This document shows positions 1-53,264 of a stretch of DNA of 64,000 nt, one piece after another. The notes beneath the pieces are model-generated. The model did not search any database. It saw only the letters and a program-made list of their open reading frames with translations, and had not been told where the DNA came from. Position numbers and translations under genes: made by a program. Location: NCBI GenBank assembly GCA_024336345.1, contig JANFOG010000013.1, positions 868,001 through 932,000 of the forward strand. The letters run 5' to 3'. Position 1 is the stretch's first letter; every line of letters begins with the position of its first letter. Source of the stretch: Mariannaea sp. PMI_226. Lineage: Eukaryota > Ascomycota > Sordariomycetes > Hypocreales > Nectriaceae.

Positions 1-1028
1 ATTAAGATGGGCTGAAAGGCCCCCGGAGCTGTGTTCATTCGACGAATACAGATTATGTAGGCATGGTGATTTACTCAAGCACATTCGTACGTATTGAGTA
101 GCTATCTGCATGGCAAGGTGAAAAGAAAAGGAGCTTGTACATACTATGGTACTACTATGTATGCAGTATGGTAGTAGGGCAGAGGCGTGGGAGGCGATAC
201 GGAGGCGAGCAACCATGGCCGCCACCCCGGTATCCCAGTCACCCAGCCCAATGCACCCCCCCCGGCTGTCATCTACTGCGTACCCAGTTTTTTCTTTTTT
301 AGTGAGAGAGTCCACCATCCATTTGCCATCGTAAAAGCGCCCCGTGCTGACGGTTGTTGGACCTTCATTTCCTTGAGCCCTGTTTTACACCTTGCAGTAT
401 TCACATCCATACCTTCCCCCGTGCCAAGTTCACTGGCCTAATTAGTTCTGACCGTAGAACTTTACAAGCTATCTACTGTAGCGCAGGTAGTCTGTACCGT
501 ACCGATGGCAATTTACAGGCGACTTTCTCCTCAACACATATAACCAATTGCTGACCCCCCCCTTTCCACCCTCCCTTCAATTTTGCTATCTAATGTATCT
601 CACATCTACAAAGTAGCTATCGCGCTGCCCATCCACACCACAACATCACCCACCCCCAGTCTCAACTCATCCTTGCTGGCCTCAATTTCCATAAAAGGTC
701 CTTTGCCTTGCTTTGATCTTGACCCTTTTTTTGCCCGTAACTGAGGCACCAGATATATATATCTCTCACCTCCAGCCTTCTCCTCTGTCCTCGACTACAC
801 TCACGCTCACATCACGTTGCGCGTCTAAGCTCCCAGATTGGCCCCATCGATACAGGGTTCACTCTCCACATCCGTACCGATTTATCGTCAACTGGGTATC
901 TTCTTGATAACGACAATACCGAACCTGCAACATCTGGACTTTTTCACACTCGACCGTGATTGACTCGGGATTGAAGTTATTCACTTTACCAGAATCCCAC
1001 GTTCGCTCAGATCTCGCAATCGCTTCCG
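1..1028. other. Intergenic / 5' flank, no gene seen
   Basis: No reading frame here has a plausible protein composition. The last 400 bases are rich in C and T, as expected for a fungal promoter and 5' leader feeding the gene that starts at 1029. Confidence 0.5.
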
Positions 1029-18340: not shown

Positions 18341-19760
18341 ATGCAGGTTCCTTTGATACGACTCCACTGCGGCGTCAACTCGTACGCCTGGGGCAAGCAG
18401 GGCCTTGACTCGGCCGCCGCCCGCTTCGCTGCTGCCACTCCTTCAGATGATTTGACCATCCAGTCAGACAAGCCCTACGCCGAGGTACCAAACATGTTAT
18501 GATCCGGCCACACGTGCCTTCGAAACACAAACAACATGCTGACCATGTATATAGCTATGGATGGGCACGCATCCCTCAAACCCCTCCCGGGATCTCGTCA
18601 CTGGCCACACGCTCCTCGACCTCTTCTCCGACAACCAAGCCCTACTCTCCTCCACCATCGCCTCCCATTACGGCTCTAAATTGCCCTTCCTATTCAAGGT
18701 CCTCTCTGTCAACAAGGCCCTCTCTATTCAGGCTCACCCTAACAAGTCGCTTGCTGAGCAACTTCATGCTCGAGACCCCCAAAACTACCCCGATGACAAC
18801 CACAAGCCCGAGATGGCAATTGCCATCACTCCTTTCGAGGGTCTCTGCGGTTTCCGACCACTCGCCGAGATTGCCCACTTCCTCAAGACTGTCGCACCTC
18901 TGCGAAGTCTTGTAGGTGAAGATGTTGCTCAAGAGTTCGCCCTGATTGCCGAGGACTCGACTGAAGTTGTTACAGACACCAAAAAGGCAGCCCTGAAGAA
19001 GGCCTTTGGTGCCCTCATGTCTTCATCTGCTGAGACCATTGCCGAACAGATCCCCAAGCTGGTTGAGCTCGCCTCTGGGACCGAGGACCTTGCCGCTGGC
19101 GGTGTGGCCTCCACCTCTGGCGAGACTCTCGCCAAACTGGTTCGCCGTCTCCATTCCGAATACGGCAATGACATTGGCCTTTTCGTCCTCTTCTTCCTCA
19201 ACTTTGTCACCCTAGAGCCCGGTGAAGCTCTCTTCCTCGTCGCTGATGACATTCACGCCTACATCTCTGGAGATATCATCGAATGTATGGCTGCCTCGGA
19301 CAATGTCGTCCGTGCCGGCTTGACCCCCAAGTTTAAGGACGTTGACACACTTGTCGACATGCTCACCTACAATTTCGCTCCAATTGAGGAGCAGAAAATG
19401 CGCCCCGTTGACTATCCCTATGCCACTCTCAACCGCGCCGGCTACTGCTCCGGCTCTGCTGTCACTCTCTACGACCCCCCGATCGAGGAGTTCGCCGTCG
19501 TTCGTACCGTTCTCCGCGGCGATGCAGCAAAGGCTACTTTCGAGCCTCTCGACGGACCTAGCATTATAATTTGCACTTCCGGAAAGGGTCGCATCTCCGT
19601 CGGCCCTACCAGCCATGAGATGAAGGAAGGTTACATCTACTTTGTTGGTGCTACCGCTGAGTGTGTTCTTGAGTCCGACACCAACAATGATGAGGATGAG
19701 TTTATTACCTTCAAGGCCTTTTGCGAGATCAGTAGCTCGAAGGATAAGCAGAGCCTGTGA
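18341..19760 (+). CDS. manA: Mannose-6-phosphate isomerase (type I, zinc)
   Basis: Predicted 449-residue cytosolic enzyme that interconverts fructose-6-phosphate and mannose-6-phosphate, feeding GDP-mannose for glycosylation and cell-wall mannans. Exon 1 (18341-18484) encodes the conserved start with NSYAWGKQG. The 70-nt intron 18485-18554 is followed by LWMGTHP. Zinc and active-site residues known from the Candida enzyme (Gln, His, Glu, His) line up with Gln107 and His109 in [11 protein letters not shown], Glu134 in HKPEM and His282 in [12 protein letters not shown]. The signature around [20 protein letters not shown] is intact. Length matches fungal type I enzymes (about 430-460), so the gene appears functional. 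Fungal synonyms include pmi1 and PMI40. Confidence 0.95.
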
Positions 19761-22535: not shown

Positions 22536-22543
22536 ATGGCTAA
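22508..22543 (+). promoter_or_regulatory. Upstream ORF overlapping the sgf29 start codon
   Basis: An ATG at 22508 opens an 11-codon frame (MASGQETERNG) whose TAA stop at 22541-22543 overlaps the coding start AUGGCUAA at 22536. Such termination-reinitiation geometry can dampen translation. It applies only if the leader intron is spliced as proposed and if 22536 is the real start. Confidence 0.4.
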
Positions 22544-23879
22544 CGGGTCGAAGCCTCGGGACGAACTCAAGAACCTCCAAGAGGATCTCGGACCGTACTT
22601 TCATACACCCCTCCTCCCTCGAAGGCGTGGAACCTCAACTGGCGAGGCGACACTTCAGGAGACTCTACGTCAACAGTCAAACACACCTGAACCTAAGCGG
22701 CAGAGGCGCGACACTTCTAGTAGAGATTCAACACCAGTTCAACATAACAGACAGCGATCTAAGGGCGGCGGCGGATCAAAGAGACAGACTCCGGGAGCTT
22801 CAACACCGAAGCGCACGCCGCCGCGAAGCGAACCAGCATCACAGAACACGCCAAAGCAGGACTCGGCCAAACAAGATCCACCAAGTCGCGAAATGTCGCA
22901 ACGAAACCGACCTGGACGCGGTTCCAACAGGAACAATGGCAATTCACATGGTGAAGAGGTACAAATCTGGGAGAACTGCAAGAGTCAGGTCAATGAGATC
23001 ATTGCGGGCATCAACCAAGAGAATGACAGCCTTGCGGAGCTGGTTGCTCTCGACAAACAAGTCGGGGCAATGGAGTCGGACAAGATACCCGGCGACTCTC
23101 TGCAGAATATGGAAAAGCTATGCCGTTCAGGGGTTAAGCTCTCCGAAGCGAATACATCCTCCTTGAACAACCTGATCGATCAACTTCGGGTGTTGCGTGC
23201 AGTTGTGGTAGCAAAGGAGCAAGCAGAGGCTCAAGCAGCAGGCCCGGGAAAAAGACAAGCTAGAGACAACGCAGCGGCGGCCTCATCATTATACGATTTC
23301 GACGGTGCTGGAGACTCGCCAGTGCCCAGTCCAATCGGTGGATCCTCACGGAAGTACGGTGATCGGTCCAGTAACCGAGATAGGGACAGCATGCCCCCAA
23401 AAGCGGACAGTGTTGAACCGCAAGGGTCGTCTGGAAGCGGTGCAGGGTCTGCGGGGTCTAACAAGTCCAAGGTGCTCTTTTCAAGGGGCGACGCCGTTGC
23501 ATTCAAACCCCGGCCGACCAACGGTGACCAGACGCAAGATTGGATACTAGGTGAAGTGGCGCAAGTCTTAGGAGAGGGCAAAAGCCGGCGCTACAAGGTG
23601 CTTGATATAGAGCCCGAAGACCAGAGCAAGCAGAAAGAATACAGATCGAGCGCCAGTAGCATGATACCTATTGCGCCAGAGAGCCAGGCAAGCACTCTCA
23701 AGCCTTGGGAGGCTGGCAAGGTAGTACTGGCACTTTACCCCAACACCACCACGTTCTACAAGGCCGAGGTGCACAGTATGGGGGATGATGGCAAAGTCAA
23801 CCTCAAGTTTGAGGGTGAAAATGACTCCACGACTTTGCAGCAAGTGGAGCGGAGGTTCGTCATTGAGTATAGGGCATGA
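22536..23879 (+). CDS. sgf29: SAGA complex subunit Sgf29 (tandem Tudor domain)
   Basis: Predicted 447-residue nuclear protein. The C-terminal 135 residues are the SGF29 tandem-Tudor domain, which binds H3K4me2/3 and helps recruit SAGA. Visible landmarks are GDAVAFKP, DWILGEV, the RYKVLDIEPED block and ALYPNTTTFYKAEV. A coiled-coil-prone segment around residues 130-225 (EVQIWENCKSQVNEI onward) matches the part that contacts the acetyltransferase module. The first 119 residues are Lys/Arg/Pro-rich and disordered. The ATG at 22893 (MSQRNRPGRG, giving 328 residues) is closer to the usual family length, so it may be the true start and the upstream frame leader only. Frame and composition upstream are also compatible with coding. 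Confidence 0.88.
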   Translation: MANGSKPRDELKNLQEDLGPYFHTPLLPRRRGTSTGEATLQETLRQQSNTPEPKRQRRDTSSRDSTPVQHNRQRSKGGGGSKRQTPGASTPKRTPPRSEPASQNTPKQDSAKQDPPSREMSQRNRPGRGSNRNNGNSHGEEVQIWENCKSQVNEIIAGINQENDSLAELVALDKQVGAMESDKIPGDSLQNMEKLCRSGVKLSEANTSSLNNLIDQLRVLRAVVVAKEQAEAQAAGPGKRQARDNAAAASSLYDFDGAGDSPVPSPIGGSSRKYGDRSSNRDRDSMPPKADSVEPQGSSGSGAGSAGSNKSKVLFSRGDAVAFKPRPTNGDQTQDWILGEVAQVLGEGKSRRYKVLDIEPEDQSKQKEYRSSASSMIPIAPESQASTLKPWEAGKVVLALYPNTTTFYKAEVHSMGDDGKVNLKFEGENDSTTLQQVERRFVIEYRA

Positions 23880-28688: not shown

Positions 28689-29000
28689 TCATCTACATTT
28701 GTAACTTTTATTCTGCTTTCTTGCTTCCCTGGTTACTTGACAAGAGCGGCATTTGTCGCTGGGTATCTCGTCGATCAAGCGGTCTCTCACCTTAGTCGAG
28801 CAGGGTTTACCACTTCTGCGGTATGCGCGCCAGCACCACCGGTCTCGGTCAGAAGTGGAAAGCCCGTCGCCACAGTCTTCACAGATGAATGTCAAGTGAG
28901 GGATGAGGGTGGGTGGGACTTTATATTGTACTAGTGAACTGACAATCCTTTCTTGCAAGTTGGTTTTACAATGAACAGTGCAACTCGTCATGGAGAACAA
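28689..29000 (-). pseudogene. Degenerate copy of the small Cys-protein family (copy A)
   Basis: Open frame of 103 residues whose C-terminal two thirds carry the family signature: Cys40-x2-Cys43, Cys56, Cys67, then Cys84-x2-Cys87, with WRAY after Cys56 matching the conserved C-x2-A. The first 39 residues do not align: the Met-Cys start shared by the other copies is missing. A TATAAAG sequence lies at 28919-28925, only about 35 bases before the first CxxC codons, whereas in the sister copies the box sits 130-210 bases before the ATG. Likely a copy that lost its leader and start by deletion, or one with an unrecognised first exon. It is the first of nine same-strand copies. Confidence 0.55.
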
Positions 29001-29755
29001 TTGTTTAGTTTAGTCCATGGCATTTTTGTTATTTGTTCCGGCTTTTTTCACGACTCTAGTTCTGGAAACATTGAAATGAATCACGCAGCTCCTTACTTTT
29101 ATCTGTGTGCTTCTTGCATCTTTATTCAATACAGGGCCGGACTCCCTGCGTTGTTTCTTTTGGGTCCCTCCAGATGGGATATATTCCTGATCTTTGGCTA
29201 TCTGACACTATTCGCCAATTTCGCTTGCTGCGTTGGTGATAGTCCTCTCATTCACTAAGATGCGGCTCAGTGGCTTCATCTAGCCTATGTGGCTGTAATT
29301 GCCTTGGGAAATACGTGTGAATACGTGAACTACGTAGTCTTGGCTGTGGATTAAGAAATGCCAATACTCAACAACTAGTTATCGTCTGCCACTCTACATT
29401 CTTCTCCAGCTGTACATTTTCACTTATCAATACATTTGCCGCCCCTTCGATAAACATTGGTAAACTGCTTTCCATGCGGTAAGCGGTGGTGTGTAGCATG
29501 ATATGGCCTTTCTGTTTTTGTTTTTTTTACTTGCTCAATGGGTGATTACATTGTTGCGCTACTCTGTATCTAGTGCTATCCTAGGCATTTCTCTTTGATC
29601 ACTGATTCCTTCATGTTCATGGAGAACAGTTTGCAGCTCCAATTGTTCTCGCCCCCTGCCTCATTTGCCCACAGAGATGTCCTCTCATTATTAATCAATT
29701 CCTCTCCTATGAGGAGATGTAGGATTTTTTTTTTATCGAGAAGTCATCCTAATGG

Positions 29756-29986
29756 CTAGCGTCGGCGGCGAGCCTCCTCCTGTGCGCGCTTGATGCACTT
29801 GGGGCAGATATCAGGGTTGACAAAGTCCTCGAGGAACTCTGACTTGACTTGCTCACCATGCTTGCCACTTCGGCATGGTTGACCTCGTTGAGTGGCATCG
29901 GAGCACCAGACTCGGGGCTTCGCGTGCTTGTCAATGGTATAATCGCACTTGTCGCAGATGACCTTGATGATATACTTGGTGCACAT
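29756..29986 (-). CDS. Small Met-Cys zinc-ribbon-like protein (copy B)
   Basis: Intronless 76-residue protein, start ATGTGC. Cys at 2, 11, 14, 28, 38, 61 and 64; two CxxC pairs (CDKC, CPKC) and Ala31 three residues after Cys28, as in its sisters. The longest copy: the segment between Cys38 and Cys61 is extended, and the tail is strongly basic (EEARRRR). No signal peptide or membrane segment, so probably cytoplasmic or nuclear. The paired CxxC motifs suggest one or two bound zinc ions; that is inference. Function unknown. Confidence 0.72.
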   Translation of the reverse strand: MCTKYIIKVICDKCDYTIDKHAKPRVWCSDATQRGQPCRSGKHGEQVKSEFLEDFVNPDICPKCIKRAQEEARRRR

Positions 29987-30722
29987 TGTTACTCGTTTCG
30001 TTACGGGAACGGTTGAGAATGAGCTTGGGGAGCTTGATAGCTGGGTTATATGATGTGGTCAGTTGTGATGGTGAGTACTCGAAGGGAGCTGCTGGGTAGC
30101 TGCGAGAAGACGCTACTAGAGACTCAGTAAGTAAAGCAAGTATGGCAAGGCAAAGTGAGGCAAGGCAGCTTGGGATAGCTGAGGTCTGCTGGGAAGGAGT
30201 AGTGTGGTTGCTTGTAAGTCAATCCAAGGCTTGGAGAGGAAGGGGAAAACGACACGGAATAACAGGGCAGGGGACGTGGCTATATCCCTACGAAATGCGT
30301 ATTTGAGATCATGAATCATAAATTCCGATGTGGTTTCAACAGGGAGGAGAGGAGAACAATAGGAAAAGGGTTCAATGTATGGCGAGCTCTGGGTTGTAGG
30401 ACCTTGCAGGTTTACGTTGTGATTCATACTACCTCAATTCTTGCTCCCACCTCACGTACGTGTGGAAACCACTCAGGCAAAGGTATCAAGCTATCGGCTT
30501 ATTTCTCAGAAGCATTTTAGAGACAAATTCCAGCTCACTTTAAGGCAGAAGATGCACTGGAACACGTTGTTTTCTGCAGCGCGCTTCCCAATCCTCATTC
30601 GACGGACGGACAAGGAGATGGAGCAACTCCTGCTCATCAGACTCCCTACAACCCCAATGAACAGCCAAGCTAAGTAACCCTCATAACGACGCCACGCCGC
30701 ATCATGTATATGTCAACATATG

Positions 30723-30923
30723 TTATGAGACCCATTGGCTCCTCCGTCCTTGACATCTAAAGCAGAAAATAGGATCGAGGCGTTTCTGTTTAGTTCTTCC
30801 AGGTATGTCATCGCAAGGCCAGCGTCTTCTCCTCGCGCGACGGCACATTCGAGTTATCCTGTCAGAACTGAGAAACTCTCCACATTGCCGACAGAAGTAT
30901 TGGATTACGCGCTGCGTGCACAT
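30723..30923 (-). CDS. Small Met-Cys zinc-ribbon-like protein (copy C)
   Basis: Intronless, 66 residues, start ATGTGC. Cys at 2, 11, 14, 27, 37, 54 and 57, with CRQC and CFRC pairs. The segment after Cys27 is RRARRRRWP, so the central loop is highly basic and could contact nucleic acid; it keeps the family Ala at position +3. A perfect TATATAAAA box lies about 140 bases upstream (31062-31070). Sequence identity with the other copies is low outside the Cys frame, so the copies are old or fast-evolving. Confidence 0.72.
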   Translation of the reverse strand: MCTQRVIQYFCRQCGEFLSSDRITRMCRRARRRRWPCDDIPGRTKQKRLDPIFCFRCQGRRSQWVS

Positions 30924-31061
30924 CTTTCCGATCCTCGAGATTGGGGTTAAAATAAATATCGATTCTGGGAGGGCGGCAGGCGGTTTCGTACGAGAGTAGG
31001 AGTTAAGGGCTCTTTGGAGATCTACCTGTCGAAGTTGGCTGGAAACAGAGAAGGATTAACG

Positions 31062-31070
31062 TTTTATATA
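31062..31070 (-). promoter_or_regulatory. TATA box of copy C
   Basis: Minus strand reads TATATAAAA, about 140 bases before the copy C start codon. Confidence 0.5.
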
Positions 31071-31275
31071 GCCCCAATCAAGACCCTTAATCATGGTGAC
31101 AAATGTGCGAACGCCTTCGTTTTCCGGCGTGTATCAAGAGCTGGAGCTCGTGCATCAATGCTATTTCCATCACCCACGAGAAGTAAACTCTTAGACAGAT
31201 CCTATGCGGGTATTTTGATGAAATGTGATAAATTTTTAAACCGCTACCTACTGCTGTTCCCTCTATGGTTATTAT

Positions 31276-31485
31276 TTACTTTTGTTTACTCTTCCGTTTC
31301 TTCGTTCGGCATTTCTCGCAGTTCTTCCAGGAAGTCCATTTGGACTCACTGGTACGCATCTTCAGTTGGCATTCCGAGAGATTCTGGATCGCTTCGGGGC
31401 AGTATTGAATAGCTGTATCTTTTACGACACGCAAGACGTCTTCACAAATCTCGCAGAAGTAGACTTTTTGAGGACGGACACACAT
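31276..31485 (-). CDS. Small Met-Cys zinc-ribbon-like protein (copy D)
   Basis: Intronless, 69 residues, start ATGTGT. Cys at 2, 11, 14, 29, 39, 56 and 59, with CEIC and CEKC pairs and Ala32 in the C-x2-A position. The tail is very basic (RTKKRKSKQK), resembling a nuclear localisation signal. A CATAAAAAG sequence on the minus strand (31613-31621) occupies the place where sister copies have a TATA box. Only 352 bases separate it from copy C, so the two could share regulatory DNA. Confidence 0.7.
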   Translation of the reverse strand: MCVRPQKVYFCEICEDVLRVVKDTAIQYCPEAIQNLSECQLKMRTSESKWTSWKNCEKCRTKKRKSKQK

Positions 31486-31871
31486 CTTTGATGGTTCGGG
31501 TTCTAGGCGTTTTTGGGTCTTTTTTTTTTGTTTTGGCTTCTAGAGAGGAGGCAGATTGGGAAAGCGAGGAGTGGTTTGATTTGAAAACATTGTATAAAGT
31601 GTTGAGAGGATGCTTTTTATGAAAGAAGTTGTTGTCGAATCACAAGCACTGGTTCTCAGAAGAATGAAGCATGTGTTGCGTGAACACATCTATGCACTGA
31701 CAATTGAAGCCCCTGAATCAAACAACACTGTAAAGAATGAAAAACCTCTGTTACTGTACTAATGTTATCCAATTACAACCGGCTTCTAGAAATAGCATGG
31801 TGTCTACAAGTCACTCACTCCCGCAAATCACATCCAACCACGATATTGTCAAGTCTCTCAGGCCCGGCCTC

Positions 31872-32057
31872 TCAAGCTTCTTGACAACAGACAGGGCACT
31901 CCTCCTTCGGCACTAGCTTAGATCTTATCACGTGCTTCATTTTCTCACAATCCTTTTTCTTGGTCTTCGCTTTGTCGCACCGCTCGACAAACCTTCCGTG
32001 ACCTGCCAGACACCCAGACTGGGCACACCGGAGGCGTAACTTCACGTGAGTGCACAT
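31872..32057 (-). CDS. Small Met-Cys zinc-ribbon-like protein (copy E)
   Basis: Intronless, 61 residues. Cys at 2, 11, 16, 27, 37, 54 and 57 plus an extra Cys58. The first pair is C-x4-C (CAQSGC) instead of CxxC, a two-residue insertion that would disturb a zinc knuckle unless compensated by the shorter following loop. The C-x2-A-x6-C block (CDKAKTKKKDC) is intact and Lys-rich. A TATAAATAA box lies 210 bases upstream (32267-32275). Confidence 0.68.
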   Translation of the reverse strand: MCTHVKLRLRCAQSGCLAGHGRFVERCDKAKTKKKDCEKMKHVIRSKLVPKEECPVCCQEA

Positions 32058-32266
32058 TCTCGTGTCCTTGTTTCCAAGTTAGAAGCTAGAATAGGTGAGA
32101 AATGTGAATTATCTCAAGATTTTCTGGGAAACGAAAATAGTAATAGTACAAGGTATATTCTTTTTGTTCTCTGCTTTCGGAACAGAACTAGCGTTGAGAT
32201 ATGTTTTGTGGTTGTTCTTGGTTGTATTCGGAACGACTTTGCTAGAGAACAATCGAATCCTTTTTT

Positions 32267-32275
32267 TTATTTATA
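32267..32275 (-). promoter_or_regulatory. TATA box of copy E
   Basis: Minus strand reads TATAAATAA, about 210 bases before the copy E start. Confidence 0.45.
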
Positions 32276-32461
32276 GATGGAGGACGGACATGATTCATAG
32301 CCAAGAAATTCACTATCCAGATATAGGTGCATGCATCTTTCAAGGGCTGATGGCTTGATTTTGACTTCATGTGCTACCTCCATATTCCTTCGTCATCCCA
32401 CATATTGGTCTCGCGGTTCCCGGTGAAAACAGTGTGGCATTCTGCAAAGGGATACAATACA

Positions 32462-32482
32462 ACTCTCTCTCTCTCTCTCTCC
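32462..32482. repeat. CT-dinucleotide microsatellite
   Basis: About ten uninterrupted CT units followed by a longer imperfect CT-rich tract to 32530, just 3' of copy F (minus strand). Confidence 0.75.
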
Positions 32483-32537
32483 TCTCTTTATGTCTCTCTA
32501 TCTCCTCTTCCTTCCCTTCCCTCTCCCCGAACAGCGG

Positions 32538-32723
32538 TTACTGAGATATGCGAGTCGTGCAATAGCTACATTGACTGGGATGTATTCGAAGTGGCGGCAA
32601 ATATCGAGTACGTGCCGGCCGCCCACAGTAACCCCTCGGGCCGCAGTATCGTACATGTCCTTCGTAATGATCTATGCGCCTACATAGCGAGCATTTCAGT
32701 GGCGTCAACACTGTGTAACACAT
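32538..32723 (-). CDS. Small Met-Cys zinc-ribbon-like protein (copy F, divergent)
   Basis: Intronless, 61 residues, start ATGTGT. Cys at 2, 11, 14, 27, 33, 52 and 55, with CSLC and CSYC pairs. It is the most divergent intact copy: the fourth-to-fifth Cys spacing is 5 instead of 9 (CGPRGYC) and the conserved Ala is missing. The outer pairs keep their spacing, so the metal-binding framework may be retained with a smaller central loop. A TATAAAG box lies about 174 bases upstream (32896-32902). Confidence 0.62.
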   Translation of the reverse strand: MCYTVLTPLKCSLCRRIDHYEGHVRYCGPRGYCGRPARTRYLPPLRIHPSQCSYCTTRISQ

Positions 32724-32895
32724 ATTTCTCCGGCTGCTGTGATGAGACTGGTGGCAGAATATTGATATTGAAGAGATTCCGTTTATGGCTTCTTTGCCAT
32801 GACAAATGAGACATCCACAAAATTAACAGTATGGCTTTTGTTCTGACCTGAACGTGTTTTCAGAAGCCAGATCGTGAGAGAGCTTGGGGAGCCAA

Positions 32896-32902
32896 CTTTA
32901 TA
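32896..32902 (-). promoter_or_regulatory. TATA box of copy F
   Basis: Minus strand reads TATAAAG, about 174 bases before the copy F start. Confidence 0.45.
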
Positions 32903-35365
32903 ATTGCTGAGATGGTATGAATAACTGTACAAGTTGGCTTCTCCTCTTCGACATCAGGAAAAAAAACAATAAGTATCAGCATCGGTACGCGTTTCCAGCC
33001 TGCAGAATTTCCCATCCTCCCCCCTTTCAGCCAAGTGTGTGATGAGAGCCTCTGTGCTAGTAGAAAATTGCCCAACCCCTCGACCTTGTTCGAACTATTT
33101 CCGTGCATTACATTAGTTACGGCGCCACGGCCGTGTCTCGTCACTGCTTGCGCATCACCGCGTCTTTCCGTGTTCAAAGGCCTGTAGTTCCCATTCGCCC
33201 AACACGCAGGGCTACACGGTTGTGCGCGTGGCCCGCCAGATAGACCCAAGGCCTCATGTTTGCGGCGAGTTGGTGTAGCACAAGAGAGCGGACATCTGCG
33301 AGCTTGTGCGCCATTCGGTCATCTGTTAAATACGGGGAGGGGCCAATCATTCTAATGCGTTGAAATGGAGGAAAGCATTCAGTTCATGGCCCGTATTGTT
33401 GGCTCCAATTCGGCCAGATTAACTTACATGGTGGATGTATAAGCCTATCTGAAGAGTATAGAGCGTACCAGAACTTGATATCGTAACAGCAGTCAAGAAA
33501 AGCTGTGATACAAGGACATTCAAGCAGTTCATCCATGATCTCACTATCTACCACAAGACTCAGGTGGCTGATCACATACATATCACACTGCCACAGACCC
33601 GTATTGTGAGGCTTCACACGCACCTCAGATGAACTCAATGAGATTAGGTATAGTAACAACCGCGATGTGTGCTTAATAAATCAGTTTCGAGTGTTGTTCT
33701 TTCTCGTAGGCGTTGTGCCTGGAAAAACACAGTACAATTGACAATATGTCCCATTCGAGTGATGGGCCCAACGGAACCAGAAACGGCCTTGGCATGCTCA
33801 GTCCAGGCAATATGTACCAGCAAATACTATATTGCAAGAATATATAGTGTTTAACTATAATATTCCTGGATATTTTATAAAAGCTAAGGTAGCTTCACTG
33901 AGGGTTTTAGCCTTAACCTTACAACTTCTTGAACTAAATCATCATTTTAGGTGCGAAGTACTGACCTTTCGTTGACCCCATTCATTCTTATATAGAAGTC
34001 GACTTAGGCTACGTCGAATTATATCCAAGACTCCGTAGGTTGAAGTAGCCTTAATACATTTGACTTTACAAGTGTATTTAGGTTATAAATTATAAACCAT
34101 AGTATCAACTAGGCTTGGCAAGACAGCGAGCTGTATATGCGTTTAGCACGAAGTCCTCCTTATTGACCATGATATAGACATACGACATATTACCCTTAAC
34201 TGTTTATTGTCTTTCTATATTATCACAATTAGATCAATGGGCTATATGTATAGGACTAGATAATCTCCACAGCTGTCACAGGGCATATGTTACTTACACA
34301 AGTGCTCGCTGGTAATGTCCTCGCCGCCCCAGACAACTATGCTCCCAATAGCCTCCAGCTAGCAGGGTCGGGCCGATATTTTGAACAAATATTACGTACA
34401 TGCACATTGGCTGAGAGACACCGACTTCAATATCCTCCTACCGGATCTCCCGTTTTAAGACTTGTCTCACTCGATCTTACTCGAAGTGGCTCGTAGGGTC
34501 GATACCGAAGAGGTGGTTTCTTGTCGACAGGTTTATCAATGACTCTAGGATCACGCAGGAGCAAGGAAAGTAAGGCTTTTCCGAAGAATGATGGGTAACT
34601 CGTGGCACTCTCTCTCCTTTTCTTAGCTACAATCCTGGAGCGAGTGAAGCAAAACAAAATATGAGGCGAACTCGCCCATGATTTGAAGATATAATTTATG
34701 AGACGCCGCGCCGGCTCACAGGAGAGTCGGCCTCTATCACTCGAGGTCATTCATGGTTCCGAACTAGAGCAACACAAGAGGTTTGGATTGGGGAAATGCT
34801 ATCGGCATTCACCATGACATCCCGTTGCAGCCTTCTCCAAACCCCCACAACAGTAATGTGTTATCCGTTAAGATGCAAGCGGTATCATCTACCTTTGCAA
34901 TTGCCAATGGTAGTCTCTCCCGTTTTCATCGCTATAGCATGTCTTGTTACAGGCTAGTGGCATGTGGGCAATTGTACAGTTAGGTAGTGCATGCAGTATC
35001 CCCGCTCAGCAAAAAGACAATGTAAGAATGGTTTCAGTTCAGCTCTATGATGGCCAATCCGATTCTCCATGATGGCCCCCGCAGCCTCCAGCTGGTCAAT
35101 CACATCGATACACAATTTGGGCCCTAAGGATCTATCCAGTCGAGAGGAAAGTTGATCTACCTATAGAGAAGTGAAAACTATAAATGGCGACATTGCCACA
35201 ACTCAGTCTAGCCTACCTACCATGAAGGTATCTCTTCCCCTTAGCTGCCCCTTCAAGTCAGGCTGAATTAAGCAAGAAGACTCTCTGTTCAAGTAAGTAC
35301 CTGATGGAATGTCAACCGAAGAAATAAACCATACTAACCCATCGCCTAGAACCTGTGCCACCGGT
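32903..35365. other. AT-rich gene-free stretch splitting the Cys-protein array
   Basis: About 2.5 kb without a supported gene. From 33640 to about 34300 it is markedly AT-rich, with many TA steps and short TTATA/TATAA units, as in decayed and possibly RIP-mutated repeat DNA. No transposase or reverse-transcriptase motif can be read in any frame. It separates copies A-F from G-I. Confidence 0.45.
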
Positions 35366-35673
35366 ATGCTCATCTCGTCGATTCTACTTTTCGCTCCGCT
35401 TGTGCTAGCTGCACATGAGGTTGTGAAACCTAACGTATTGATGACCGATAAGCGCAGCATCGCTGAGGCCAACTCTTGTCGCTATAACGGTTGTAAATGT
35501 GTATCAAACGTGCGTCCTGGCGTATATTGCGGCTGGTGCGCGCTGCTGTTACGAACACTGGGAGTGGAGGCGCTTGGGGTGACGTTTTCCAGTGCGGTAG
35601 TGGCGGTAGCTGCTGCAACCATGGACCAAAATCTTCTTGTGCTAATTCTCAAAACTTCTCACGATGTGGATAG
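35366..35673 (+). pseudogene. Frameshifted small secreted Cys-rich protein
   Basis: An ATG at 35366 starts a clear signal peptide (MLISSILLFAPLVLA) followed by a mature start with Cys motifs (SCRYNGCKC, then YCGWC). After the last motif the frame becomes hydrophobic and Cys-free. Shifting frame by two bases at GCGCGC (35538-35543) restores a Gly/Ser/Cys-rich coding sequence (motifs QCGSGGSCC and SCAN, final RCG) ending at a TAG at 35671-35673. The simplest reading is a 2-base expansion of a GC repeat that inactivates the gene; a sequencing or assembly error is the alternative. A GTAAGT...CCTAG interval just upstream (35292-35348) may be a leader intron. It looks like a secreted effector- or antimicrobial-type protein; no function can be assigned. 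Confidence 0.6.
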
Positions 35674-36184
35674 CTGGGACACTTCAATATAAATATTACA
35701 CCTAACTGCCCATCTTAGGCAGGAGATTGCATACCAAGGAATGTTAGCCCAAAGAGTAGTTGTCTGACCTTGCCGCGTTATCGACGCCAAGAAAGGCGCA
35801 TCATCGCATCGGAAATAGGCCCCTCATATCATGTAAAGCAGCTTCAAGATAGGCCAAGATAAAGCCAGTAACATATAACTAAAGATGACAGTAGAAACAC
35901 GAAAAAGACGAACAATCGTGTCAAATCGCTGTTGTCTCTAGGGTAGCCCCGGGGCAAATCCCGACGAATTTGGGTAGTGAGGCCGCACCATACATACATT
36001 GCATGACACCCTTTCGATGAGACCAAGAAAGACCCTGGGCAATCTTCGTTGATTAGGCGCGAGTCGGGAACAGGCAAATATTGTCGGTTTTTTTTTATAA
36101 ATTGTAAATTGCCTACTTTTCCCTGTTCTTCAACCCCTCCACTGTCAGACACCCAGCCAGCTCAGGTGGCCCTCAATTTTCTTT
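35674..36184. other. Intergenic, no gene seen
   Basis: About 500 bases between the broken secreted-protein gene and the second block of Cys-protein copies. Only short frames without protein-like composition are present. Confidence 0.4.
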
Positions 36185-36379
36185 CTACGCTGAGCTCACC
36201 CTACAACTTATGCATCCGACTTTGCTCACTTTTAGAGGGGCTGATTGATCTGTTGTCACCGGATTGCAAGCTTGTCTCGACTGCCGGGCTTTTGAGCAGC
36301 TCTCAACGGGTCCCGTCAGGAGGCCTCGAAAGATCTCGCATTTCTCGCAGATGGTGGGGATGTAATATTGGACACACAT
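36185..36379 (-). CDS. Small Met-Cys zinc-ribbon-like protein (copy G)
   Basis: Intronless, 64 residues, start ATGTGT. Cys at 2, 11, 14, 28, 38, 56 and 59, exactly the majority spacing, with CEKC and CISC pairs and the C-x2-A-x6-C block CSKARQSRQAC. A TATAAATA box lies 151 bases upstream (36530-36537). First copy of the right-hand block and, with copy H 323 bases away, the pair most alike in spacing. Confidence 0.72.
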   Translation of the reverse strand: MCVQYYIPTICEKCEIFRGLLTGPVESCSKARQSRQACNPVTTDQSAPLKVSKVGCISCRVSSA

Positions 36380-36529
36380 GATTGACGATGATATTGAGGC
36401 TGTTGGATGGACAGTTTTGTAAAAGACTTTATTTGTGACAAGCTTGAGTGATTTGACTGTGCCTCTTGTTGAGATGGAGTGAAATTGGTTACCTCATTGG
36501 GACTATGAGTAGGGTAGCGTAGAGGGATA

Positions 36530-36537
36530 TATTTATA
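36530..36537 (-). promoter_or_regulatory. TATA box of copy G
   Basis: Minus strand reads TATAAATA, about 151 bases before the copy G start. Confidence 0.5.
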
Positions 36538-36702
36538 GAGGGCGACGCAGGAGTCTAACAATCCGATTGTCAAATTCGCCATTCGAAACTGAAATTTAAT
36601 TGCTTTGACTTGTATTCATCACTCCATCATGCTTCCTAGTGTGTCAACAATTTCTTCGCGCCTCCTGGTCTCTCAACTCCTTGAATCACACATGCCAGGG
36701 GG

Positions 36703-36903
36703 TCAATACTCCATCACCCCTCCCTTTTTGCATCTCATACAATAATTATAGCTCATCTTGATAGCCATATTCTTGACCGAAAGATTACGGCACTCTCTTC
36801 CCTCGCGGGCCGCTCGTGCACATTGACCGACCCGTGTCTTCGGGAGTGTGAGCGGCTTGTCGCACCTCTCACAGATCTGATGGTGTATTACTTTGAGGCA
36901 CAT
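36703..36903 (-). CDS. Small Met-Cys zinc-ribbon-like protein (copy H)
   Basis: Intronless, 66 residues, start ATGTGC. Cys at 2, 11, 14, 28, 38, 55 and 58, with CERC and CMRC pairs; block CARAAREGREC keeps Ala at +3. Cys positions 2-38 are identical to those of copies B and G. A TATAAAAGG box lies about 153 bases upstream (37056-37064), nearly the same distance as in copies C and G. Confidence 0.72.
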   Translation of the reverse strand: MCLKVIHHQICERCDKPLTLPKTRVGQCARAAREGRECRNLSVKNMAIKMSYNYCMRCKKGGVMEY

Positions 36904-37055
36904 GGTGGTGTATTTTCAGACGGAAATCTGCTCAAGGCAGATGAGTAAACAGTTAGCAAATTTATCCGGACTCTTGCTCTCTTCGGCTGTTTTGCTTTCG
37001 CTTTGTCGTTTCGGAAGCCGAGAAAAGAGTGCCAGGAAGCAGATCAACAGGAGTT

Positions 37056-37064
37056 CCTTTTATA
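37056..37064 (-). promoter_or_regulatory. TATA box of copy H
   Basis: Minus strand reads TATAAAAGG, a strong TATA match about 153 bases before the copy H start. Confidence 0.5.
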
Positions 37065-37715
37065 GTAATTATTTGGAGCAAATATTCACGCATGAGTCAG
37101 GATAAACATATCACATTGTAAGAGAGAGTTCAATGGGATACATAGTCGATTTGATTCAATGCTCTGGTTCAGCAATCAAGTTTCCATGTTCGTGGTGATG
37201 TAAAGACGGGGAAATGACAAATGACGCATTTGGACCTGGGTTAATATCATAATGTGCCGTGATCGCAAGTAAGAAGAATGTCTATCTTTCGAAAATACTA
37301 CTCTTTAATGATGATTCTTATTCGTGTAAAAAATTAGCAGATCTATCAGCTGATACTCGTATTGCTGTTCGCGAAACACATATCCCTGGTTGGTGAGCAT
37401 CATCCAACGGCTGGCTGCTTTCCCAACTCCTTACCTCGTTGCGCGCATTCCGTGTCTCCCATAATAGCCTCCTATGCTTAGGAGGAGGTTTTGCTATTCA
37501 GTCCGAATACACTTGAAATAAATATCTGGCTTACAAGGGTTGTCCATGCTGATTGACACAGAACGCCAGCTGATATACTATCACTAATCCCTAACCTTGC
37601 ATATGCTCAGGTTCGATGTCATTCTTCCTTATAAATAGTCCGTATTCAAATTCATCACTCGGCGTCTCAATTTCCCTAGTCGGCGCTCAAGAAGGCAAGG
37701 CCCATAATCGACATT

Positions 37716-37913
37716 CTATGCAGACCGCGGCCTGGGAGGGTTGCATTTCTCACAGTATAAGGGGCCGCACTTGGACGGGCTGTATTTTAACGGCGCTTTC
37801 CTGCACAACTTGCCTGTGTTCTTCGCCCTTGCGCATCTAATGAAATCGTTGCTCGATTTCGTGATTGTTTCGCACCCGGTACATGCTTCCATCCTGACCT
37901 GATAATGGCACAT
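37716..37913 (-). CDS. Small Met-Cys zinc-ribbon-like protein (copy I)
   Basis: Intronless, 65 residues, start ATGTGC. Cys at 2, 11, 14, 27, 37, 54 and 57 plus an extra Cys49, with CTGC and CEKC pairs; block CARAKNTGKLC is close to that of copy H. The tail is Pro/Arg-rich (PPRPRSA). A CATAAAG sequence about 180 bases upstream is a weak TATA candidate. It is the last recognisable copy before the core gene ssn3. Confidence 0.72.
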   Translation of the reverse strand: MCHYQVRMEACTGCETITKSSNDFIRCARAKNTGKLCRKAPLKYSPSKCGPLYCEKCNPPRPRSA

Positions 37914-38821: not shown

Positions 38822-40159
38822 TCACTCCTTGACTCGCTTAGAGGGTCGTATCAGCGAATCATCCGGCAATCCGCTTCGCTTCGTTCCAGGAAGACTACTT
38901 GTGCGGATGTCGTTGTCATCTTGGCTGACGCGACGGTGAGGGTATTCATTCTTACATCCCTCGAAGCAATTAGTGCTCACACGATCACCTGTGCTAAAGA
39001 ATGGTGACTGTAGCGCCTGAGCAGCTGTCAGACGCTTGGAGGGATCGTATTCCAATAAGCCAGCAAGAAGTTTGTATCCTTCGGCACCGAGAGACTGCAG
39101 AGGGGCGGAACCATTAGGGCCATTCGTGTGCGAAATAGTGCTGTAGTACCATTTTTCTAGGTTGGAGCTGGTCGGAGGATGCTGGGTGCGGTTGCCGTAA
39201 TGGCTGTGATGGTGACTACTGTGGTGATGATGGTGCGACGCCATGGAATTGGCGAGTGTATTGAGCTGATTGTATTCGGGCATGGTGGCTAACAAGGGCC
39301 ACCGTTCCTTAGTAGGCAACCCCATAATTTCGACAATCTTCTGCATCTGGTTACGCTGAAATGGAACTGTCTTCTTGCTATCCATCTTGGCCTCCTCGCC
39401 TTTGAAAATGGGCCGCAGAGATAGTAACTCGGCGAATATGCATCCGATAGCCCACATGTCAATGGCGGGAGTATAGTGGTAGGACCCGAGGATTAGTTCC
39501 GGCGCGCGATACCATATTGTTACGACCACCTTATCGCCGCTGAATAGGGAGTGCAGAGGTTTGTCGAACCGACGGGCCAGCCCGAGATCGCCAATCTTGA
39601 CCTCGCCAGCAGAGGTAACCATGATGTTTGCTGGTTTCAAGTCACGGTGCAAAACCCAGTTCGTGTGAAGGTACTGACAGCCGTTGAGTAGTTGAAACAT
39701 AATGCTTTTTACAGTTGCTGGAGGTATGGGATGCCGAGGTTGCTGGGTGTGATAGTGGATGATTTGAAGCAGGTCGTGCTCGGCAAATTCAAAGACCATG
39801 TAGATGCACTTATCCTCCAACATGATTTCGCACAGTCGGATAACATTGCCGTGACTCAGTTCGCTGCATAAACTCATCTCACGGATGGCACTTTGTGAGA
39901 TTCCGGTGTAGCTGATTTGTTCGCCCTCCTTGTCAGGCTTGAATTTTTTTATAGCAAACTCTCCGACAGGCTTGCCATTGCGACCGACAGCTTTATAGAC
40001 GCGTCCATAGGTACCAGAACTGATGAAACCGACAATGCGATATTTGTCGGTGATTCGAACTTTGGGTTGATATCCAGGTGAGCGATCGTGAGACTCTAGT
40101 GGCCGTGGCTGGTAAGCATGGGCTGGAAAAGCAACGCCATGACGAGGGCGGAGAGGCAT
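38822..40159 (-). CDS. ssn3: Mediator kinase CDK8 / Ssn3 (Srb10)
   Basis: Complete 445-residue cyclin-dependent kinase in one exon. It is the catalytic subunit of the Mediator kinase module, pairing with cyclin C to phosphorylate the RNA polymerase II tail and transcription factors in the nucleus. Visible features: glycine loop FISSGTYGRVYKAVG (45-59), Lys71 in FAIKKFKPDKEG, the CDK8-specific SQSAIRE helix (88-94, in place of PSTAIRE), HRDLKPAN (171-178), and DLG (191-193) instead of DFG, as in the CDK8 family. WYRAPELILG and the fungal CDK8 block FKGEEAKMDSKKTVPFQ follow. A His/Ser-rich insert (HHHHHSSHHHSH) near residue 325 leads into NLEKWYYSTI, a layout I associate with Sordariomycete CDK8 proteins. 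Length and motifs indicate a functional gene. Confidence 0.95.
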   Translation of the reverse strand: MPLRPRHGVAFPAHAYQPRPLESHDRSPGYQPKVRITDKYRIVGFISSGTYGRVYKAVGRNGKPVGEFAIKKFKPDKEGEQISYTGISQSAIREMSLCSELSHGNVIRLCEIMLEDKCIYMVFEFAEHDLLQIIHYHTQQPRHPIPPATVKSIMFQLLNGCQYLHTNWVLHRDLKPANIMVTSAGEVKIGDLGLARRFDKPLHSLFSGDKVVVTIWYRAPELILGSYHYTPAIDMWAIGCIFAELLSLRPIFKGEEAKMDSKKTVPFQRNQMQKIVEIMGLPTKERWPLLATMPEYNQLNTLANSMASHHHHHSSHHHSHYGNRTQHPPTSSNLEKWYYSTISHTNGPNGSAPLQSLGAEGYKLLAGLLEYDPSKRLTAAQALQSPFFSTGDRVSTNCFEGCKNEYPHRRVSQDDNDIRTSSLPGTKRSGLPDDSLIRPSKRVKE

Positions 40160-42895: not shown

Positions 42896-44231
42896 CTATC
42901 GGGGTCCCAGCTTCTCCAACACCCGTGCGCCCTGCTCTTCCCATTCCGCCTTGGTAACCCACATGTTCTCCTTATCAGCCATAATGTTGGCCAGCACCGC
43001 TCCGCCCAAGAAGACCATATGTCTTCGTCTGGGAGGATCTTCTATCCGCACCTTGAACTTGCTCAGTCGCTCCGGATCGCCCTGCAGCGCCCTCGTAAGC
43101 CACAGCTGCTTCAGCTCCTTTTCCAGTCGGGACGGTAGGCCTGGGTACATGCTGCTTCCACCAGACAGCACAATAGCCTTGAAAAGTGACGAACGGATAT
43201 CCACATCGGCCGACTGGATCGTGTTGAACAAGAATTCGCCCAGGCCGGGAGACTCGCTATCTACCAAGTGAGGCTGGAACAAGCACTCGGGAGCCTCAAA
43301 ACGCTCGCTGCCTACCCGAATCACACGTCCATCCGGAAGAGTGTAGTCTTCGACAAGCACCGTAGTTTCCTCGCTCAAACGCTTGTCCAGCTCCAAGTCA
43401 TATGACACGTAACAGAGCTTCTCCTTGATCTGACGGACAGTCTCGAAATCGGCGGTTCGGTTGAGGGCGTAGCCGCGACGGAGGAGCAGCTTGATCAGGT
43501 TACGGGTAACATCGCGACCAGCAACGTCTAGCCTCTTCGTGAGATGGTTCAGGACCACGGATTCATAAACGGGGACAATATGGGTGACACCATCACCGGA
43601 GTCGACGACAACACCAGAGCTCAGACCTGCACGCAGACGACCGTTAGCATACACCAATGCTAGCTTGGCGACGGACTGAGACATAATAGAAGCTCTGGAA
43701 GCAACTCACCTTGTGCGTACAAAGCAAGGACCGCCTGAATCGCAACGTAGACACCGCCAAACTCATATCGATCAAACATGACCTCACACATCTTCTCCCG
43801 ATTCTTCAGAGGGTTCATCGGAGGCTCGGTCAAGAGGATCTTGCGGCCTGAGGGGTTGACCTTGAGCTTCTCGAAGAAAGTGTAGTCCCAAAGGTGCTCC
43901 ATATCATCCCATTTCTTGACGATACCGTTCTCCATTGGGTAGCTAATCTGAAGCATGGTTCGGGCAGCGGCGGCCTCGTCACCGCACATAATGTCCTTAA
44001 TAACAATATCGCTGTCGCCCTGCTCCTCAGATCGCAGGATCGGCCGACCTACGATGGAAGGGTACTGGTGCTCCGGGAAGTTTTGCGCGGCATATCCGAC
44101 CTTGAGGAAACCGGTACCGCCGTCGAGGACTAGGTAGCAGCAATGGGGTCAGCTTCAGGGGTTTGGCGGATTGGGCAATACAGCTTGGGAATGAAGCTCT
44201 AAAGCTTACCAATGGGAGGAGGGTTAGCCAT
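42896..44231 (-). CDS. arp2: Actin-related protein 2 (Arp2/3 complex)
   Basis: Three exons on the minus strand: 44231-44210, 44129-43710 and 43626-42896, giving 390 residues, the standard Arp2 length. The 22-base first exon encodes MANPPPI, and the splice completes [29 protein letters not shown] Arp2 N-terminal sequence (nucleotide-binding phosphate loop). Exon 2 carries the [10 protein letters not shown] and [12 protein letters not shown] blocks. Exon 3 starts in the second phosphate loop ([16 protein letters not shown]) and ends with the typical [18 protein letters not shown]. Arp2 nucleates branched actin filaments at endocytic patches. Intron 2 stays open in frame with an internal ATG, so a naive single-frame reading would give a false N-terminus; the protein alignment rules it out. 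Confidence 0.95.
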
Positions 44232-51926: not shown

Positions 51927-53264
51927 ATGGCTGTGGCTCCATGGATATGCCGAAGCTGCACTAGAGCGCTGGCTCGCTCTCACACACGACAATTCGTCCG
52001 CTATGCCTCCAATGGTGCGCTTGCAAAGCTCCATGGTGCTTGAGAACAAAGATAGCTAACGCACGACATAGACACCTCCCTCCTCGCCCCCGCTCTCCTT
52101 CAGCGTGCTCGGTCGATGAACGCCGAGTACGATGCCCTCCAGAAATCCCTCAATGAATCTTTTGACGCTACAAAGGCCAAGCGTGTTGGTGAATTGTCCC
52201 GTGTCGCCTCAGCTCTAAAGGCATGGGAAGAGTCTCAAGCTTCGGTTAAAGAGCTCAAGGCCATGCTAGACGATCCAGAGCAAGACGCAGACCTGGCATC
52301 AATCGCTACGGATGAATTAAACACGGAGACGGGCAAGCTCGAATCGCTCGCCAGGAATTTATCGGCCAGCTTGACGCCTCGCCATCCCTTTGCCGACTTC
52401 CCCTGCATGATTGAGTTCCGACCCGGCCCCGGAGGCTTGGAGGGCAGGTACTTTACTGACAGTTTATTCAAAATGTACAAGGCATTGTGTATGCGCAAGG
52501 GCTATCGCCACAATGTCATGAAGTACGAATTCGCAGACACAGCGGGTGACAGCTCGTCCTCAGCCGGTGAGAACCCGCTCCAGGAGGCTATTCTGGAGAT
52601 CCAGGACCAAGGCGCCTATGACATCTTTCGCAGCGAGGCTGGTATGCATCGTGTACAGCGTATCCCAAGCACTGAGAGTAAGGGTCGCGTGCACACGAGC
52701 GCCGTGGCCGTGTGGGTGCTGCCGTCATTCCCTGAGAGCGGCATGACCGCCGACACCGCGGATTTTGATGATCCGGACAGCGATTTCTACGTCAACCCTC
52801 AGGAGGTGAAGATCGAGACGATGCGAGCACGGGGTGCCGGAGGACAGCATGTCAACAAAACCGAGTCTGCAATCCGCATGACGCACATCCCGACCGGCAC
52901 TACGGTGTCGATGCAGGACCACCGATCGCAGCAGAGAAACCGCGAGGATGCATGGAAGATGATGCGGTCACGCATTGCGGACCAGCGGCGTGAACAGCGC
53001 GAGGCGGAAGCCGCGAACCTCCGCAACAGTGTGCTGAGCCAGCACCAGATCACACGCGGCGACAAGATCCGCACGTACAACTACAACCAAGATCGGTGTA
53101 CTGATCACAGGGCGGGATTGGACGTACATAACCTGCCTGATGTTCTAGAGGGCGGCGAGACGCTGGACAGAATCATGACCGGAGCAAATGAATGGCTGGT
53201 GAACAAGGACATCTCGTTACTTGTTGCTGAGGAAGAGGCCAAGGAAAAGGCTGGAAAGAATTGA
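51927..53264 (+). CDS. mrf1: Mitochondrial peptide chain release factor 1
   Basis: Two exons (51927-52014, 52072-53264; 57-nt intron) encode 426 residues. The first exon supplies a basic, Ser/Arg-rich mitochondrial targeting peptide (about residues 1-29). The RF1 core follows: an N-terminal coiled coil, the PGPGGLEG stretch, EAGMHRVQRIPSTESKGRVHTS, and the universal GGQ motif at residues 286-288 in RARGAGGQHVNKTESAI, which triggers peptidyl-tRNA hydrolysis. The end has the QxxRGDKIRTYNYNQDRCTDHR block of organellar class I factors. It reads UAA/UAG stops in mitochondrial translation. Choosing the downstream ATG at 52116 would lose the targeting peptide. Confidence 0.94.

Follow-up and report, generated by a model that had tools for sequence, protein, structure and literature searches.

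The ribosomal protein bL36 binds its metal through three cysteines, C11, C14 and C27, and a histidine at or near position 33. PerR, of the Fur/PerR proteins, carries two CxxC pairs (C96, C99, C136 and C139) that, according to published work, form a Zn(Cys)4 site. These are the closest described counterparts of the array of short, cysteine-rich genes reported here, which lies in a 64,000-nucleotide stretch of Mariannaea sp. PMI_226 (contig JANFOG010000013.1, positions 868,001 to 932,000 of the forward strand; hereafter the window). Eight intact open reading frames (ORFs) of 61-76 codons (copies B-I, 29756-37913) and one decayed relative, copy A, stand there in a single row on the minus strand, at the place, on the strand and in the number that a first-pass annotation of the window had given. 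The genes keep a common frame of seven cysteines, and constraint acts on the proteins that they encode. As far as sequence can confirm it, the array is a real multigene family without a name.

The frame of the eight intact copies reads M1-C2-x8-C11-x2-C14, followed by a fourth cysteine at 27-29, another near 33-39 and a CxxC pair at the end. C2, C11, the fourth cysteine and the final pair are present in all eight; C14 is present in seven, copy E having C16 and hence a first pair of the form CxxxxC, and the fifth cysteine follows after nine intervening residues in seven, the gap in copy F being five. In the numbering of copy H, the invariant columns are M1, C2, C11, C28, C55 and C58, with C14 and C38 kept in 7 of 8. 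Every copy except F also has an alanine three residues past the fourth cysteine. The first-pass annotation had described the frame, its exceptions in E and F and the alanine correctly. Its account of two CxxC pairs holds in that the pairs are there but is an undercount, since C2 and the fourth and fifth cysteines make up a third, equally conserved group. No histidine is conserved among the eight copies. Cys2 sits at the extreme N terminus throughout, and the tail beyond the last CxxC varies from 4 to 12 residues. Upstream of the MC methionine, as far as the preceding stop, there is no in-frame ATG in any of the eight, and the base at -3 is always a purine (A in seven, G in one), as expected of fungal starts.

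With 58 ORFs of at least 50 amino acids in the window and a pattern fitted to the copies, the array might consist of chance ORFs matching a motif that was written after they had been seen. We regard this as very improbable. The pattern MC-x(6,10)-C-x(2,4)-[CH]-x-C-x-C-x-CxxC retrieves exactly copies B-I and nothing else in the six frames of the window. A slightly narrower pattern gave eight matches, all on one strand, compared with a single match in total over 200 windows simulated with a first-order Markov model; the same pattern gave none in another 240 kb of the contig, taken as 24 stretches of 10 kb, in which profile scans likewise found no family member. Because the pattern derives from the first-pass description of the copies, pattern-independent tests were added. 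Profiles built with one copy left out recovered seven of the eight held-out copies at E values of 1.6e-9 to 0.0086, the best matches outside the array lying at 0.34 to 1.1. Copy F was missed by its held-out profile (E 50, rank 160), and its membership therefore rests on the cysteine frame and on its place in the row.

Codon-position asymmetry also speaks against chance. Both TGC and TGT occur in each of the seven cysteine columns, where identity at codon positions 1, 2 and 3 is 0.964, 0.929 and 0.505; choosing the columns for cysteine makes the first two figures partly circular, a reservation that does not touch the mixing at position 3. The 46 gap-free columns without cysteine give 0.316, 0.337 and 0.268, against means of 0.277, 0.276 and 0.257 over 200 shuffles in which codons were moved between the fixed cysteines and the proteins realigned each time. 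Identity at position 2 exceeded all 200 shuffles, as did amino-acid identity outside the cysteines (0.119, shuffle maximum 0.105). Position 1 lay 2.8 standard deviations above the shuffle mean, although one shuffle or more attained its value; position 3 was within 1 standard deviation. Third positions are saturated while the protein pattern persists. The earlier suggestion that the cysteine frame is under selection is borne out at the protein level, both by the TGC/TGT mixing and by the asymmetry outside the cysteines.

Codon usage, by contrast, weighs against coding in most of the row. We trained a synonymous-codon score on eight conserved ORFs of the window (own scores 0.02-0.26) and compared it with 1467 stop-free stretches of the region (95th percentile 0.07). 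The score was clearly raised in copy B (0.35), marginally so in D (0.09) and indistinguishable from that of non-coding DNA in A, C, E, F, G, H and I (-0.17 to 0.01). Intergenic-like codon patterns, which the first-pass annotation had listed as evidence against its proposal, are thus seen in seven of the nine copies and not in B or D. Together with the lost start of copy A, they would suit a dead or dying array of relics, most of them no longer expressed, in which the cysteine frame is a memory of past selection. We consider this improbable: with the third positions saturated, unconstrained copies would long since have gained stops and lost cysteines, and all eight intact copies have kept an open frame, a start, seven cysteines and the purine at -3. 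Small, weakly expressed genes often lack codon bias, and for this reason we give the codon-position asymmetry and the intact frames more weight. Among k-mers within 250 bases upstream of the copies, none went beyond the shuffle range, as a shared promoter motif might, and the dinucleotide indices of the array resemble those of the rest of the window, giving no sign of repeat-induced point mutation.

The copies have diverged widely, with about 18-26% identity in alignments to the sequences that led the structure models described below. Among repeats of at least 20 bases, 8 direct families and 9 inverted pairs were found, none of which links two gene copies in register. Copy A is recognised at E 2.5e-4 by a profile of the other eight copies from which it was excluded; the pattern scan gave it no MC start, and no ATG-TGY is visible by eye in the 500 bases upstream. 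The row is also interrupted by a hole of 3461 base pairs (bp) between F and G (32724-36184), the remaining spacings between intact copies being 323-812 bp. When frames in the hole were read through stops in search of decayed copies, the yield was an unconvincing 0.4 bits at 34703-34774 (E 0.28). The strong divergence, the decayed copy and the hole suggest birth-and-death turnover. Turnover of this kind is frequent where genes are under conflict, but it is no proof of conflict. Conflict genes that evolve rapidly, as in allorecognition, drive or antiviral defence, would combine a fixed cysteine scaffold with a diversifying surface, and the low identity, the lack of DNA-level repeats joining gene copies, and the decayed copy and hole would all fit them. 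We nevertheless think this origin rather unlikely. Age alone, with little constraint other than the fold, may account for the divergence, none of the 9 neighbouring ORFs with a family or name is a known conflict gene, and saturation of synonymous sites (third-position identity 0.268) precludes a test of positive selection on the array.

The coordinates of the copies and of their neighbours are collected in the Table. The array lies between an SGF29 tudor-domain ORF and an SSN3-type kinase ORF, the latter 93% identical to a protein of Thelonectria olida and 91% to one of Neonectria ditissima (both Nectriaceae, Hypocreales). These identities point to a probable Nectriaceae host and agree with the mention of Hypocreales in the first-pass annotation. 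The hole between F and G holds a plus-strand ORF (35309-35692) that opens in a hydrophobic, leader-like manner, continues into a cysteine-rich stretch and has no Pfam match; it could be the gene of a small secreted cysteine-rich protein, intact or not.

Table. Members of the array and surrounding genes in the window (aa, amino acids; pI, isoelectric point; pLDDT, predicted local distance difference test).
Feature	Coordinates	Strand	Remarks
Copy A, decayed or start-less	28689..29000	-	Family-like part 28692-28916; CxxC, C, A, C, CxxC; without MC start
Copy B, 76 aa	29756..29986	-	Matches pattern; held-out profile E 9.9e-9; sole copy with clear codon bias
Copy C, 66 aa	30723..30923	-	Matches pattern; held-out E 3.1e-8; most basic, pI 11.0
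Copy D, 69 aa	31276..31485	-	Matches pattern; held-out E 0.0047; codon score 0.09
Copy E, 61 aa	31872..32057	-	Matches pattern; held-out E 0.0086; third Cys moved to 16
Copy F, 61 aa	32538..32723	-	Matches pattern; held-out E 50 (missed); fifth Cys moved to 33; weakest intact member
Copy G, 64 aa	36185..36379	-	Matches pattern; held-out E 1.6e-9
Copy H, 66 aa	36703..36903	-	Matches pattern; held-out E 1.2e-7; lead sequence of first model, pLDDT 79.8
Copy I, 65 aa	37716..37913	-	Matches pattern; held-out E 1.1e-4; lead sequence of second model, pLDDT 82.8
Phosphomannose isomerase	18561-19760	+	Ordinary neighbour, by Pfam or homology
SGF29 tudor-domain ORF	22536-23879	+	PF07039; array lies between this ORF and the kinase
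SSN3-type kinase ORF	38822-40159	-	Array lies between this ORF and the SGF29 ORF
Actin-type ORF	42896-43684	-	Ordinary neighbour, by Pfam or homology
Peptide chain release factor (PCRF/RF-1)	52116-53264	+	Ordinary neighbour, by Pfam or homology

Searches for relatives returned little beyond the array itself. No Pfam family fits any of the nine proteins, in keeping with the first-pass annotation, which knew of no named family, and literature searches over open-licence papers turned up nothing recognisable as this family, which may be published elsewhere. Against a protein database, the eight-copy alignment produced 53 candidates that shared words with it, not one of them with an E of 1 or less, and copy H produced no candidate with three shared words; any relatives there are either unannotated or too divergent, the database itself covering Nectriaceae. 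The kin in other species that the first-pass annotation had anticipated did not emerge from these protein searches, which are weak for such divergent short proteins and do not imply absence. Across the genome (42.2 Mb, 25 contigs), nine single-protein searches (A-I) gave self-matches and otherwise linked only B and G, at E 0.448 from B and E 0.342 from G. Most of the known siblings were missed, and the searches are therefore uninformative on dispersed members. Because the members share little beyond the seven cysteines, searches based on words detect hardly any relation between them, adjacent copies included. The array DNA has no second copy in the genome, and the two short DNA matches obtained, 47-58 bases long and located on contigs C20 and C2 (E 8.3e-6), fall at a CT-rich run (32462-32519).

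The encoded proteins are basic, as had been proposed, with a computed pI of 8.8-11.0 and a charge of +3.4 to +11.4, and they are not hydrophobic (grand average of hydropathy -0.91 to -0.01). As regards the signal peptide of secreted small cysteine-rich effectors, no hydrophobic leader is visible by eye, and a cysteine stands at position 2. AlphaFold2 with copy H as the lead sequence placed strands at 2-11 and 22-26, a helix at 29-34, a strand at 41-50 and a helix at 56-63 (pLDDT 79.8, predicted template modelling score (pTM) 0.50). With copy I as lead, strands fell at 3-11 and 17-25, a helix at 28-33 and a strand at 42-49 (pLDDT 82.8, pTM 0.49). The other four models of each run were weaker (58-72). 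The predicted strand-strand-helix-strand order, common to both lead sequences, is held with moderate confidence.

The explanation that we favour, with somewhat better than even confidence, is a birth-and-death tandem family of basic, presumably intracellular, zinc-held miniproteins with two cysteine poles. Old tandem duplication would have produced the head-to-tail paralogous genes, birth and death would govern their evolution now, and each would encode a basic, presumably intracellular protein of 61-76 residues with a fold held by a metal, most likely zinc. In the proposed anatomy, strand 1 (2-11) would lead through a CxxC turn to strand 2 (17-25), a short helix (28-34), strand 3 (41-50) and the closing CxxC. 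At the first pole, C11, C14, C55 and C58 (copy H numbers) would pair to form a Zn(Cys)4 site. At the second, C2, C28 and C38 would form a three-cysteine cluster; no conserved residue of the chain supplies its fourth ligand, which may be a water, a partner or, if the N terminus is free, the alpha-amine of Cys2 after removal of the methionine. Specific contact with a nucleic acid or protein partner would fall to the basic face and tails, which are free to diverge. Charge, size and the lack of a leader make intracellular binding of one or the other the most likely activity, with nucleic acid as the partner possible rather than probable; neighbours, motifs and literature gave no pointer to a role. 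A bolder version, in which an unnamed family of two-pole metal miniproteins combines a Zn(Cys)4 site with a three-cysteine/Cys2-amine site and a fast-diverging surface, so that the array amounts to a repertoire of binders, is offered as a long shot. In that version, the amine of the processed N-terminal cysteine, as a metal ligand, would account for the fixed position of the MC start.

Genes of 60-75 codons are easily omitted from fungal annotation, and this array shows that a whole multigene family can hide there. Hidden families of short genes like this one are a plausible finding, and probably not a rare one. If made, the proteins would constitute a compact natural scaffold on which almost any surface is tolerated, and the fixed MC start raises the N-terminal cysteine as a possible metal ligand.

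Among known proteins, bL36 (PF00444) is the best profile match in the PDB. The best 13 PDB sequences for the eight-copy profile are all bL36 (E 0.0051 to 0.091), the alignment spans positions 3-35 with C11, C14 and C27 in register, and none of 100 column shuffles with cysteines fixed matched the true score (best 16.0 versus 19.1 bits). The array proteins are likewise small and basic, and the bL36 spacing from the start methionine recurs at C11 in 8 of 8 copies, at C14 in 7 of 8 and, with the fourth cysteine at 27-29, in 8 of 8. These likenesses would suit a bL36-like zinc ribbon, a ribosomal or ribonucleoprotein-binding fold in which one metal is bound by C11, C14, C28 and C38 and another is held or completed by C2 together with C55 and C58. 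We judge such a fold unlikely. An E value of 0.005 is marginal, the array copies have an extra C2, a fifth cysteine and a CxxC, and both models place a helix, not a strand, after C28. The histidine ligand has no counterpart: it would fall 5-6 residues after the third cysteine, and none of the eight copies has a histidine between positions 24 and 41. PF00444 itself was not listed for any of the nine proteins at E up to 10 (HMMER filters apply), and in the genome it was found in three places, none inside the array. The likeness may reflect a shared hairpin-and-knuckle start rather than descent. A PF00444 match over the cut-off sits on contig C1, where two adjacent matches (C1:2665623-2665869; E 5.1e-8 and 1.3e-3) have the appearance of two exons of the bL36 gene of the fungus itself.

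Other comparisons are more distant. The double zinc ribbons (DZR, PF12773, and DZR_2, PF18912) share paired cysteine motifs with the array, but copies B (10.4 bits, E 0.79) and C (10.8 bits, E 0.59) fall below the DZR cut-off of 27.3 bits and the rest are unlisted, and DZR_2 matches copy H at a sub-threshold E of 1.4. Unlike metallothioneins, none of the eight copies contains a C-x-C motif. Some short fungal hypothetical proteins probably have an MC-x8-C-G-H start, a C-x-x-ligand motif, later cysteines and a final CxxC, and would share this outline with the array; the pattern MC..C[GE][HC] had no match in the 24 contig stretches.

In structure, the nearest match to our favoured two-pole miniprotein is the C-terminal dimerisation domain of Fur/PerR (PDB 2fe3), PerR being the top Foldseek chain for both models. 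It shares with the array two CxxC pairs about 40 residues apart, both present in 7 of the 8 copies, and the strand-strand-helix-strand order of the models. Residues 5..63 of the H model align to PerR 90..144, and the end offsets would put C11/C14 at 96/99 and C55/C58 at 136/139, in an alignment that is weak and structural only. Unlike Fur/PerR, the array proteins carry no N-terminal winged-helix DNA-binding domain: they are 61-76 amino acids long and the alignment starts at model residue 3-6. Their fixed N-terminal cysteine, combined with a four-plus-three arrangement of cysteines, is unusual.

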